Virus record (IMG/VR): IMGVR_UViG_3300009011_000032
Coordinates: 1 to 36,511 of that record
Strand: one strand, 5' to 3'
Origin: a virus
Length of the DNA stretch: 36,511 bases
The notes under the pieces are model-generated. The model was not told where the DNA came from, searched no databases, and saw nothing but the letters and a program-made list of their open reading frames with translations. A program made the translations under genes and the position numbers. Shown one piece after another: positions 30,180 through 35,952 of this stretch; position 1 is the stretch's first letter, and every line of letters begins with the position of its first letter.

Positions 30180-30677
30180 ATGCAAACCTACCAATACGCA
30201 CTCAGCGCCGCGATCGTCCTACTCTTCGTCTTGGCGATCCTGCCCTACTTGCTCGCTGCAGCCCGTTGCCGGGCACATGAAGAAGGCAAGGAAATTGGCT
30301 TGGCGGAACGCAACGCTACACATGCCCAGCGGCTCAGAACGCTGAACGAAGAACTGGTGGAACTCGCCGTACAACGCGAAGCCGACCAGCGTAAACACCT
30401 CAAGACCGTGGCAAACCTCAAGCTCACCATCAGCGAGCTCGAGGAGCGAATCATGTCCTACACCGGCATGCCGGTGACCAGAGCCGATTACGAGCTGCTG
30501 ACAAAGGTCGGCGAAACACTTCAGCTCGCTCATCGCACTATGAAAGCCTTGAAGTCGGATCAGCAGGCGAGCCTGGCTACAGCACAGGCGCTCAGTGTTG
30601 ATTCGCTCGCCAAACGCATTCACGCCCAGCTGCGCAGCACCCCTGCCACGGCATCGACTGCGGAGGCAGCAGCATGA
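30180..30677 (+). CDS. membrane-anchored coiled-coil protein, unknown
   Basis: A 165-residue protein starting MQTYQYALSAAIVLLFVLAI, with one N-terminal membrane segment (about residues 7-27). A long charged helix follows with coiled-coil-like spacing (LRTLNEELVELAVQREADQ, LKLTISELEERI). The end is Ala/Thr-rich. The architecture of a signal anchor plus coiled coil resembles spanins and some exclusion proteins, but the early operon location argues against lysis. Ribosome site CGGAGCAC lies 9 bases upstream. Confidence 0.7.
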   Translation: MQTYQYALSAAIVLLFVLAILPYLLAAARCRAHEEGKEIGLAERNATHAQRLRTLNEELVELAVQREADQRKHLKTVANLKLTISELEERIMSYTGMPVTRADYELLTKVGETLQLAHRTMKALKSDQQASLATAQALSVDSLAKRIHAQLRSTPATASTAEAAA

Positions 30678-31027
30678 CCACCGTTATCCAACGAAGCTGC
30701 CTCGTTGATGGCCGCATAACTACGTACAAGCATCTCTGGGAAACGGTGGACCCTTACGACGGCGGTTATCACATCTGTAAGAAGTGCAAACTCGGCTCTC
30801 AAGGCGAGCGCCTTGCGACACCTTGCCCCGTATCCGACGCCGAGTATCACGCCGTCGCGTGGCTCGGCCAGGCCGGGCTGTACCGAACTCGGTTTGAGGC
30901 CGTGCGTAATTGTGAGCAAGCAATTACGCCAGTTTCAACTAATGAGCTGTTCGAGCTTGCCTGGAAACAGATAGTTTGCCAGCTCAATGCGGGCGGACAA
31001 ACTGCCCAACCTGCGGAGAAGATATGA
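30674..31027 (+). CDS. small early protein with CxxC pair, unknown
   Basis: A 117-residue protein starting MTTVIQRSCLVDGRITTYKH, with a CKKC pair near residue 36 that could form a half zinc site and three further cysteines. The C-terminal part (STNELFELAWKQIVCQLNAG) is helical. Start and stop both overlap neighbours: ATGA at 30674, and the stop TGA shares bases with the methyltransferase ATG at 31024. I do not recognise the family. Confidence 0.65.
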   Translation: MTTVIQRSCLVDGRITTYKHLWETVDPYDGGYHICKKCKLGSQGERLATPCPVSDAEYHAVAWLGQAGLYRTRFEAVRNCEQAITPVSTNELFELAWKQIVCQLNAGGQTAQPAEKI

Positions 31028-31794
31028 ATGAGCTGGCTCTTTTCGCAGGTGCTGGTGGAGGAGTTCTTGCCGGGCACATTTTGGGATGGCGCACCATCTG
31101 CGCAGTTGAACGTGATGCCTACGCTGCACAAGTTCTGGCGCAACGACAGAACGATGGAGTTCTTCCGCCTTTCCCAATTTGGTCTGACGTGCGCAGTTTT
31201 GACGGCAGCCGCTGGAGAGGCCTTATTGATGTCATTTCTGGCGGCTTTCCGTGCCAAGACATTTCCTGTGCCGGCCCTGGTACTGGAATCCAAGGCTCTC
31301 GCTCTGGACTCTGGAAAGACATGGCTCGAATTATCAGCGAAGTACTGCCCGAAGAGGTCTTCCTGGAGAACTCACCAATGCTTGTGGGCCGAGGACTTGC
31401 ACTGGTCGTCAGTGAGCTTGCCGAAATGGGGTATGACACGGAGTGGTGTGTTGTATCAGCGGCGGATCTCGGAGCGCCCCATAGACGTGAACGTATTTGG
31501 CTTCTCGGACGGAGAGCCGATGCAAGCGCCTCTCCAGCAGTGGCCCACTCCAGTCGCCAGCATGTCCAAAGGCTCTTCACCCAACGCACTCGTACGCACC
31601 TCAGGGGCCAGTCGCTCAAGAGATCGATTGGACCATGCAGTGATGGCCCTTCACGGTGGCCACCTGAACCCGACTTGGGTCGAGTGGCTGATGGGGTGGC
31701 CTCTAGGGTGGACCGACTTAAAGCCCTTGGAAATGGCCAGGTTCCGCGAGTGGCAGCGGCAGCATTCCACGGTTTGGAGTCAGGGCAATGGTGA
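31024..31794 (+). CDS. orphan phage C5-cytosine DNA methyltransferase
   Basis: A 256-residue methyltransferase that transfers a methyl group from S-adenosylmethionine to C5 of cytosine, probably protecting phage DNA against host restriction. Motif I FAGAGGG is at 7-13, the catalytic PCQD at 76-79 (Cys77), ENS at 115-117 (motif VI), RRERIW at 154-159 (motif VIII), and GRVADGVASRVDRLKALGNG at about 217-236 (motifs IX/X). The target-recognition region between VIII and IX is short. It has no restriction partner beside it. The coding region is shared along its full length with another open frame (31028-31807). Confidence 0.92.
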   Translation: MNELALFAGAGGGVLAGHILGWRTICAVERDAYAAQVLAQRQNDGVLPPFPIWSDVRSFDGSRWRGLIDVISGGFPCQDISCAGPGTGIQGSRSGLWKDMARIISEVLPEEVFLENSPMLVGRGLALVVSELAEMGYDTEWCVVSAADLGAPHRRERIWLLGRRADASASPAVAHSSRQHVQRLFTQRTRTHLRGQSLKRSIGPCSDGPSRWPPEPDLGRVADGVASRVDRLKALGNGQVPRVAAAAFHGLESGQW

Positions 31795-31807
31795 GGTGAT
31801 GTCATGA
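31028..31807 (+). CDS. overprinted ORF covering the methyltransferase gene
   Basis: A 259-codon frame, shifted +1 from the methyltransferase frame. It starts at an ATG immediately after the previous stop (TGA ATG) and ends in an ATGA overlap with the DUF4224 start at 31804. The product begins MSWLFSQVLVEEFLPGTFWD and has LAAFRAKT opposite the PCQD motif, RSSWRTHQCLWAEDL, SLPKWGMTRSGVLY, and ends with LNPTWVEWLMGWPLGWTDL. I recall annotated phage proteins with this same start and end as a family. Either both frames are translated or that family is a misread frame; the downstream ATGA coupling favours translation. Function unknown. Confidence 0.5.
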   Translation: MSWLFSQVLVEEFLPGTFWDGAPSAQLNVMPTLHKFWRNDRTMEFFRLSQFGLTCAVLTAAAGEALLMSFLAAFRAKTFPVPALVLESKALALDSGKTWLELSAKYCPKRSSWRTHQCLWAEDLHWSSVSLPKWGMTRSGVLYQRRISERPIDVNVFGFSDGEPMQAPLQQWPTPVASMSKGSSPNALVRTSGASRSRDRLDHAVMALHGGHLNPTWVEWLMGWPLGWTDLKPLEMARFREWQRQHSTVWSQGNGEVMS

Positions 31808-33173: not shown

Positions 33174-33848
33174 TTATATAGCCATGGAGTATCGAGAGTG
33201 CGCCAAGTAATCCGTTACGTTAACTACATACGTATCTAGGAAGGCAAACACCTTCTCCATGGCAGCTTTGAGTTCTGAAGGAGTCGCATCCTTCCCAACA
33301 TCAGAGAAAGACTTATTACCGTGAGCCAGCCAATTTCTATTATCTTTTACCCGCTTCAAATCCCGACCATCCGCGATGGTTTCAATTCCATATTTTCGAC
33401 ACACCGACCGGACGCCTTCAGCATCTAAATTTCCAGAGACCCCTGCAATAAAGTCCTGGAATACTGGACTGCTTTCGGTTTTACAAAGGCAATAAACCTC
33501 GTAAACCTTACTAATCAATGCATCTCGCGGCGTAGCAGTTATGGACTCATGATGCGACTGCCACCATATCTCCTGAAGTTTCTCATTGAGTTCCAAAAAT
33601 GAAAGCCCCTCATCACTAATCCTATTATAAATACTACGCACCCCCTCTCTAACAGTCGCCTCAACCAAATTATATAGAACAAGGTAGAAAGTCGCTTTTA
33701 ATGTAGTAGCCTCAAGCGCACTTACGTAATGCTGCTGACCATCATCATTAATGAGCCTCACATTATCGCCACTGACAAATGAAGCCAATGACAAATAAGA
33801 CTCTATTTCAAGCTTTCTTTTCCCATACTCCTCAAGAAAATGATTCAT
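33174..33848 (-). CDS. MAE_28990-type HEPN protein, putative ribonuclease
   Basis: A 224-residue all-helical protein. The conserved HEPN motif RNWLAH (Arg171-x4-His176), followed by GNKSFSDVG, marks the nuclease-type RxxxxH site; a helix with FYLVLYNLVEATVREGV (54-70) fits the first HEPN helix. I recognise it as the MAE_28990/MAE_18760 type. HEPN domains in defence systems cut RNA when activated. The ATG overlaps the DUF262 gene stop (ATGA), making it the third gene of the cassette. Sequence is AT-rich compared with the phage genes. Confidence 0.82.
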   Translation of the reverse strand: MNHFLEEYGKRKLEIESYLSLASFVSGDNVRLINDDGQQHYVSALEATTLKATFYLVLYNLVEATVREGVRSIYNRISDEGLSFLELNEKLQEIWWQSHHESITATPRDALISKVYEVYCLCKTESSPVFQDFIAGVSGNLDAEGVRSVCRKYGIETIADGRDLKRVKDNRNWLAHGNKSFSDVGKDATPSELKAAMEKVFAFLDTYVVNVTDYLAHSRYSMAI

Positions 33849-34894
33849 TGCATGACACCTGTCAATATAAAATCTTTGACAAATTCGATGCGCGCCCGCA
33901 ACCTTGGCCCAGAGTTACTACCGTGAGAAGTAGTAAGAATTGAAAACTTCTTACTTTCAGTTAGAATTTTACCCGAGACCCCTGTAACGTCGGGCTTTTC
34001 TCGCAACGCAAGATTGGAACCAATGGCAATCGCCTCAAAACGAACTCGCGGTGTAGACGTCGCTGTTAGTGACTTAGCAAACCCACCTTCAAATGAGCTT
34101 TCTACGAAGTCCAACATTTTCTTAAACCCGAGCCATAGCTGTTCCTCGCAGTAATCCGCCTTGTTCATTTCAACAAGATAGTCATTAAGGAAATCAGTTA
34201 CGCTGTGCTTGAACTCCCTGTATTTATCGCTATAAGCAAAATATCGCAAAACCAACTCTTCACGCTCACGGCGAGACTTAGAGCTTTCCGACATGGGACA
34301 AAGCTTGTTAAACTGCTCATCAACTGCACAGCGCTCCAAGAAGGTAGAAAATTTTCCGGAGTAGGCACCACGACGAATTTCAGACGCTTTTAGCTCCTGG
34401 CTCCCGGTGTTGATACGTTCAAACATATCAAGTCGTACACCAAGACTCACAGTAGAAGGAAGAACCACCATCCTCATAGTTCGATCAAGGAACTTATTTT
34501 GTTGCGAAGACGGAAGATCCTTGAAATAAAAACCGTCCAATAGATCTAATCGATCCAAGTCTTTGAGCTGGTGCTCATTATCTATGAATTGCTTGAGCGT
34601 CTGTATACGCTGCGCACCATCCAGAATTTCAACTGTTCCATCTTCGCACTGGACACCAAACATAAATGGGATGGGAAGCCCCATCAAAACAGATTCAATA
34701 AACTTGGTTTTTCGGTTTGAATGCCAAACAAAATTCCGTTGATATTGTGGAACAAACAGTTTCCCATCATTAAATCTTTTAACGATCACCTCAACGACAT
34801 ATTCCTTCGTATCGTAGGCGATAGTAGATTGAAAGCTCGAAATCTGCTCATCAACCAGCAGAAGACTTTCTTTCGTGATTTCAGTTTTCATCAT
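33845..34894 (-). CDS. DUF262 (ParB/GmrS-like) protein
   Basis: A 349-residue protein with the DUF262 signature: VPQYQRNFVW at 48-57, KFIESVLMGLPIPFMF at 64-79 and DGAQRIQTL at 92-100. DUF262 proteins such as GmrS have a ParB-like fold with NTPase and, with partner domains, nuclease action on modified DNA. No HNH-like DUF1524 domain is visible at the C-terminus, unlike GmrSD, so another gene may supply the effector. I choose ATG 34894, which shares one base with the methyltransferase TGA; a TTG one codon earlier is possible. Confidence 0.85.
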   Translation of the reverse strand: MMKTEITKESLLLVDEQISSFQSTIAYDTKEYVVEVIVKRFNDGKLFVPQYQRNFVWHSNRKTKFIESVLMGLPIPFMFGVQCEDGTVEILDGAQRIQTLKQFIDNEHQLKDLDRLDLLDGFYFKDLPSSQQNKFLDRTMRMVVLPSTVSLGVRLDMFERINTGSQELKASEIRRGAYSGKFSTFLERCAVDEQFNKLCPMSESSKSRREREELVLRYFAYSDKYREFKHSVTDFLNDYLVEMNKADYCEEQLWLGFKKMLDFVESSFEGGFAKSLTATSTPRVRFEAIAIGSNLALREKPDVTGVSGKILTESKKFSILTTSHGSNSGPRLRARIEFVKDFILTGVMQ

Positions 34895-35952
34895 CAACGT
34901 CCTTGCGCACTTAACACAAACCGTCTGGATAACGCCGGTGGCACTGCGTTTCCTATCATTTTTTGCAGACTGGTTCTTTTAGTGACACCAGAGTAATCAA
35001 GCCAATCTGGCAGCCCCTGTATTCTTGCCGCTTCATGGGGAGTAATCACCCGCGCTTCCAATGGATGAAGAAAGCGACCTTGCCCCATTGATCCAAAACC
35101 GCCTGTAATGGTCTGAGCAACGTCATCCCACTTTAATCTTCCATACATCGACTTGTAAGAGTGCTTACTTTGATGACACAATGGCCGCAATTCGTTTGGC
35201 AGATCGTAAGAATCGGTGGAGTACAAAAAGTCTGCACGCGCCTTATTTACTGCTGTCATGCTCGAAGGCGAATCGAATATATTTTCACTTCGCAACCCAA
35301 CCAAATCATGCAGCACATCCGAGAGCACGAACCTTTCATTAGTATAAATACTGCTAACTACCGAGTCCAAATCGTCGCTCAAACTTCCAAAAATCACATG
35401 CCGCTTACGCCCCTGAGGCACTCCCAGCATTTTAAAATCAATCACAGCTTCGACAACTTGGTAGCCGTGCTCAAGGAGGACTTCCCTAGATTTCTCAACT
35501 ACACTTTCTTTGGAGTGAACTACAGACGGGACATTTTCAATAATAAAGTATTTTGGCAAGCACAAACCTATGAACTTTATTGTCCTCAAATACAAAATGT
35601 TTCGTGGATCTTCTCTTCGACTATGATTATTAAGATTAGAATGCCCCTGACATGGCGGCCCCGCAAAAAGAAAGTCCGTCCCTTTAAGCCTATCGATGAC
35701 CCCTTGTTCGAAAGTAGTCTCAATCCGCGAAAAATCATCACCGATGATTTTTGAAATATCACCGTGACAATACTCTTTTAAATTTTTGGCAAAGTTTCTA
35801 TTGTAGAACTCCGAAGCAGCATCATCCATATCGCAAGCAAAACTAATTTCACAATCTACGTTTAAATCTGCTGCCGCCTGGAGAGCTCCAATCGTCAGCC
35901 CACCCATCCCGCAAAACAAATCTACAACCTTAATTGAATTGCCTATACTCAA
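34894..35952 (-). CDS. C5-cytosine DNA methyltransferase of three-gene defence cassette
   Basis: A 352-residue methyltransferase with all main motifs: DLFCGMGG (11-18), GPPCQG with Cys101, ENVPS (139-143), QGRKRHVIFG (180-189) and IGNAVPP (333-339). The segment AQTITGGFGSMGQGRFLHPL (279-298), then ITPHEAARIQGLPDWL, belongs to motif IX and the recognition end. The only start in frame before motif I is TTG at 35952; an in-frame stop lies just upstream. It is a different subfamily from the orphan enzyme at 31 kb. It should mark self DNA for the DUF262/HEPN pair encoded downstream. Confidence 0.9.
   Translation of the reverse strand: MSIGNSIKVVDLFCGMGGLTIGALQAAADLNVDCEISFACDMDDAASEFYNRNFAKNLKEYCHGDISKIIGDDFSRIETTFEQGVIDRLKGTDFLFAGPPCQGHSNLNNHSRREDPRNILYLRTIKFIGLCLPKYFIIENVPSVVHSKESVVEKSREVLLEHGYQVVEAVIDFKMLGVPQGRKRHVIFGSLSDDLDSVVSSIYTNERFVLSDVLHDLVGLRSENIFDSPSSMTAVNKARADFLYSTDSYDLPNELRPLCHQSKHSYKSMYGRLKWDDVAQTITGGFGSMGQGRFLHPLEARVITPHEAARIQGLPDWLDYSGVTKRTSLQKMIGNAVPPALSRRFVLSAQGR

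Follow-up and report, generated by a model that had tools for sequence, protein, structure and literature searches.

The window analysed here, the whole 36,511-nucleotide stretch of IMG/VR record IMGVR_UViG_3300009011_000032, represents a temperate phage with contractile-tail genes and encodes a tail sheath, a tape measure protein, a terminase, a portal and a CI-like repressor. Just upstream of a DUF4224/excisionase-like gene and the integrase, a single 784-base stretch holds two open reading frames that overlap end to end on the plus strand: F1 (31024-31794, 256 aa) and F2 (31028-31807, 259 aa), the latter in the +1 frame relative to F1. Translation of the window confirms the frame lengths given in the original prediction, the spacing of 4 nt between the starts (ATGAATG) and that of 13 nt between the stops, and direct reading shows that the blocks it had placed opposite each other in F1 and F2 do face each other (FAGAGGG and FSQVLVE, FPCQD and FRAKT, RVDRLKALGNG and WTDLKPLEM). 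Adjoining the integrase, an overlapping pair of genes on the minus strand (33174-34897) encodes a MAE_28990-type HEPN protein (PF18737) and a GmrSD_N/DUF262 protein (PF03235); this pair looks like a phage-borne defence module.

The tandem start ATGAATG (31024-31030, plus strand) is preceded by a Shine-Dalgarno-like GGAG (31015-31018, plus strand) that lies 5 nt 5' of the F1 ATG and 9 nt 5' of the F2 ATG, and the TGA at 31025-31027 doubles as the stop codon of an upstream ORF (30674-31027). The start region was compared in 132 distinct loci, with seven loci in which the two starts align differently set aside. The F2 ATG lies 4 nt past the F1 start position in all 132, the complete ATGAATG is present in 99, and a Shine-Dalgarno-like motif is found upstream in 103, usually 4-5 nt from the F1 start. 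The F1 start position is variable (ATG, GTG or TTG, with no start codon there in about ten loci) and the F2 start is always ATG. Codon 2 of F1 is AAT in 131 loci and CAT in the remaining one, so that the F2 ATG is kept, whereas AAT makes up only 41% of the Asn codons elsewhere in F1. One GGAG could serve both starts; its position before the two ATGs, together with the upstream stop within the tandem start, makes shared initiation or re-initiation plausible, and the loci lacking an F1 start codon at the usual place indicate that shared initiation is not universal. The overlap of the F2 stop with the ATG of the next gene (31804), which had been taken to suggest F2 translation, is present in the window, but the argument fails across relatives: among the 132 distinct loci, F2 ends in such an ATGA junction in 33 and F1 in 52, and the junction is weak evidence, being not conserved.

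By its profile matches, F1 (31024-31794) is the catalytic chain of an m5C DNA methyltransferase; it has motifs I-VIII and X and lacks motif IX. F1 matches phrog_363 (E 1.9e-63) and the Pfam family DNA_methylase PF00145 (E 3.4e-33), the latter match being confined to positions 4-169 of the 324 in the profile; the similarity of F1 to M.HhaI stops near residue 167-171. Its motifs are located on the plus strand: motif I (LFAGAGGG, 31039-31062), motif IV with the catalytic Cys (GGFPCQD, 31240-31260, of which GGFPCQ is invariant across 84 sequences), motif VI (ENSPM, 31366-31380), the motif VIII region (GAPHRRERIWL, 31471-31503) and motif X (RLKALGNGQVP, 31714-31746). The features of a PF00145 catalytic domain, i.e. 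motif I, the PCQ of motif IV, the ENV/ENS of motif VI and motif VIII, are accordingly all present; a target-recognition region (TRD) and motif IX are absent from the same chain, and F1 residues 161-211 are unconserved.

The C-terminal part of F2 (31028-31807, plus strand), identified by omega and hhalign, is a TRD/motif-IX segment. A motif IX-like stretch, GHLNPTWVEWLMGWPLGWT (31658-31714, plus strand), ends where motif X begins in the other frame, with the LNPTWVEWLMGWPLGWT of F2 preceding and abutting the RLKALGNGQVP of F1. The LNPxWVEWLMGWPxGWT of F2 corresponds to the motif-IX segment that actinophage methyltransferases of the single-chain type carry, and in hhalign F2 residues 211-230 align with this segment of a single-chain methyltransferase profile with a probability of 97.7 (E 1.6e-12) over only 20 columns; the motif-IX match of the single-chain profile itself to M.HhaI is colinear and not significant alone. 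The F2 profile also matches Firecracker gp5 (E 4e-20) and Noelle gp76 (E 1e-13). A Pfam search with F2 gave no match, and the F2 profile found nothing below E 0.2 among PDB sequences. The predicted structure of F2 alone was of low confidence (pLDDT 59) and had no PDB match at Z >= 2, a result that is uninformative for an obligate subunit.

Several observations show that the second frame is maintained by selection. IMG/VR loci were gathered twice, 80 by F1 alone and 80 by F2, with F1 identity down to about 48%. F2 is present at the same +1 offset in all 160, in keeping with the original prediction that proteins of the MSWLFSQ family may lie over methyltransferase frames. The stops in F2 that would have spoken against a coding role are not common among these relatives: F2 is open in all IMG/VR loci examined except for rare truncations (L083; F1 is truncated in L080), and among 82 loci from bacterial genomes and two E. 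coli prophages both frames are full-length in 73. When the codons of F1 were shuffled synonymously, the +1 frame stayed open in 38 of 2000 shuffles for the window and in 0-34 of 2000 for nine relatives, i.e. in 0-2%. In 60 non-overlapping pairs of relatives, we then sorted isolated substitutions according to what each one changes in F1 and in F2. Omega for F2 is 0.15 (NN/NS; bootstrap 0.12-0.18) and 0.30 (SN/SS; 0.26-0.35), a result that is robust to kappa values of 1-4 and the same with pairs from F1-selected loci only; in the imaginary +1 frame of ordinary neighbouring genes (25 alignments) the corresponding values are 0.98 and 1.15. These values bear out the proposal that F2 is a conserved, selected coding frame. 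Similarly, no F2 stops arose at about 470 F1-synonymous stop-creating sites, whereas the controls had 21.5 changes at 123 sites.

Constraint is divided between the two frames along the locus. Up to codon 160, F1 is conserved and F2 is weakly to moderately constrained, its residues 1-40 and 101-160 being constrained and amino-acid constraint being weak or absent at residues ~41-100. The pattern is reversed at codons 161-220, with omega 0.7-1.3 for F1 and 0.08-0.12 for F2; this region, in which F2 is the constrained frame (31504-31683, plus strand), we take as the TRD in F2. Codons 221-240 are under tight constraint in both frames. Dual coding of F1 and F2 is strongly supported by these data, with selection keeping both frames in hundreds of relatives.

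Members of the F1/F2 family are widespread among phages and prophages of Pseudomonas, Acinetobacter, enterobacteria and others, and the order of motifs along their DNA is constant, with a frame switch before the TRD and motif IX and a switch back before motif X. Counting only loci that could be classified, since simple patterns left many loci unclassified, 172 of 173 proteobacterial/genome members have motif IX in the +1 frame and motif X in frame 0, while in the actinophage set both motifs are in frame 0 in 33 of 40 loci and both are in the +1 frame in 6. Actinophage relatives have zero or one frame switch. RitaG gp71, PFR1 orf45 and a Streptomyces plasmid gene carry motifs I-VIII, an LPTP-containing TRD, the motif-IX segment and motif X in one frame, and the structure predicted for the single-chain form aligns with M.HhaI from end to end (Z 23, about 240 residues, 3.5 A). 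In Noelle (gp77/76) and Firecracker (gp6/5), the methyltransferase is split into two overlapping genes, the second of which carries motifs IX and X. RitaG gp71 and PFR1 orf45 resemble F1/F2 in motif order, LPTP repeats and an LxxxFxEWMMGWPxGWVT-type motif-IX segment; they differ in that a single frame holds all motifs with no overlap.

Some loci depart from the common layout. In E. coli PCP07014 (1500-2261), both frames are broken at nearly the same place, and RefSeq lists a pseudogene with an internal stop. Three MAG loci (L326, L332 and L345) have an F1 stop between the motif I-VIII part and motif X together with an open F2; this stop could be an error, decay or a further split. Distant m5C methyltransferases of Stenotrophomonas, Porphyromonas, Bacteroides and Mycobacterium phages (L168, L169, L170 and L171) have a long open +1 frame with a motif-IX-like end; this frame opens further into F1 and suggests that nested second subunits form a class that is wider still.

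Altogether, we consider it very probable that the two fully overlapping frames of the locus encode the two polypeptides of a single m5C DNA methyltransferase. The best reading of F2 is that it forms this enzyme's second subunit, because it supplies exactly what F1 lacks. In our model, F1 would provide motif X as well as the SAM-binding/catalytic domain with motifs I-VIII, and F2, which we infer to be translated, would provide the target-recognition region and motif IX, which in monomeric enzymes make up the small DNA-reading domain. F1 and F2 may assemble as a heterodimer into an alpha/beta enzyme that would methylate phage DNA, either as a protection against host restriction or in the manner of an orphan methylase. 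A single Shine-Dalgarno sequence probably starts both polypeptides at AUGAAUG, and coupling or re-initiation at the embedded upstream stop is also possible. Among the points that count against a two-polypeptide enzyme are the shortness of the hhalign match, the weak constraint on F2 residues ~41-100, which gives no reason for so long an N-terminus, and a few bacterial/MAG loci with a stop in F1.

The same weakly constrained residues would fit the idea that F2 is a shadow, open and seemingly conserved merely through the conservation of F1. We regard this as barely credible: control +1 frames evolve neutrally (0.98 and 1.15) and F2 does not (0.15 and 0.30), the ~470 F1-synonymous sites have yielded zero F2 stops against the 21.5 changes at 123 control sites, and the flip of constraint at codons 161-220 is not what a shadow would give. 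It is improbable, if less starkly so, that F2 is a separate protein with a function of its own, e.g. in anti-restriction, overprinted on a methyltransferase. In favour of this, F2 starts at a conserved ATG of its own, and constraint covers most of the protein, residues 1-40 and 101-160 among them; but F1 would then be left without motif IX and a conserved TRD, no F2 was seen away from a methyltransferase frame among the 160 viral loci, and the C-terminal part of F2 matches the TRD/motif-IX segment of single-chain m5C methyltransferases at the right place along the DNA. This match likewise disfavours the bifunctional modification/anti-restriction locus put forward in the original prediction.

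Alternatively, the motifs could be joined in a single chain by two programmed frameshifts, +1 before the TRD and back before motif X. Along the DNA, the motifs do follow the order of a single-chain enzyme, and the frame switches compensate each other, but this mechanism requires two efficient shifts and accounts neither for an F2 that begins with an ATG 4 nt past the F1 start and is open and under constraint from there on nor for the openness of F1 through the TRD region, and we consider it very unlikely. Returning to the two-polypeptide enzyme, we tentatively suggest, as a possibility that we would not favour outright, a large phage-borne enzyme class with its catalytic and target-recognition parts in two frames of the same DNA segment, which would have arisen from a single chain via two compensating switches, after which both frames lengthened to full size; the ratio of subunits would be set by a single ambiguous start, and the N-terminal 150 residues of F2 would have originated de novo by overprinting and have their own role.

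A precedent for a methyltransferase subunit encoded within the gene of its partner is M.EcoHK31I, in which the small subunit lies in a different frame inside the gene of the large subunit. This two-polypeptide m5C methyltransferase (YGGCCR) has motifs I-VIII and X in the large polypeptide and motif IX in the second, with the predicted TRD placed in the large subunit (PMC3404938). Compared by that description only, F1/F2 are alike in this division: F1 is a large polypeptide with motifs I-VIII and X and without IX, and on sequence evidence motif IX is supplied by F2. They differ in that the second frame spans the whole gene with a start spacing of 4 nt and in that F2 holds the constrained TRD region, and also in their wide phage distribution. 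The F1/F2 family appears to extend the M.EcoHK31I principle to an overlap of full length, in which the second frame contains the TRD region. M.AquI (CYCGRG) is likewise a split m5C enzyme, with a small subunit carrying motifs IX and X (PMC3404938); F1/F2 share with it the motif IX on a second polypeptide and differ in that F1 holds motif X, whereas Noelle gp77/76 and Firecracker gp6/5 resemble M.AquI in having IX and X together on the second polypeptide. For the tandem start, Thermus rnpA-rpmH has ATGs 4 nt apart (AUGGAUG), with one Shine-Dalgarno sequence thought to be common to the two frames (PMC9841429); unlike F1/F2, its products are unrelated proteins and not subunits of one methyltransferase. 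The literature searched yielded no description of a phage methyltransferase overlap of the F1/F2 type, which does not prove that none exists, and a text on overlapping genes of phage Fc02 does not mention a methyltransferase (PMC9936078).

It is rare for genes on the same strand to overlap over their full length with selection shown in both frames, and in the present case the products seem to be halves of a single enzyme. Loci with the F1/F2 layout number at least in the hundreds among phages and prophages. Because the public records examined list only one CDS, e.g. F2 in Vibrio phage 1.236.O (2501-3199, as a hypothetical protein with the methyltransferase frame unannotated) and F1 in E. coli PT62, one subunit has been missed, and cloning the annotated gene alone would likely give an inactive or altered enzyme. 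Finally, the series of zero, one and two frame switches provides a testable model for the splitting of a gene into overlapping frames, and the AUGAAUG start offers a natural test bed for ambiguous initiation.
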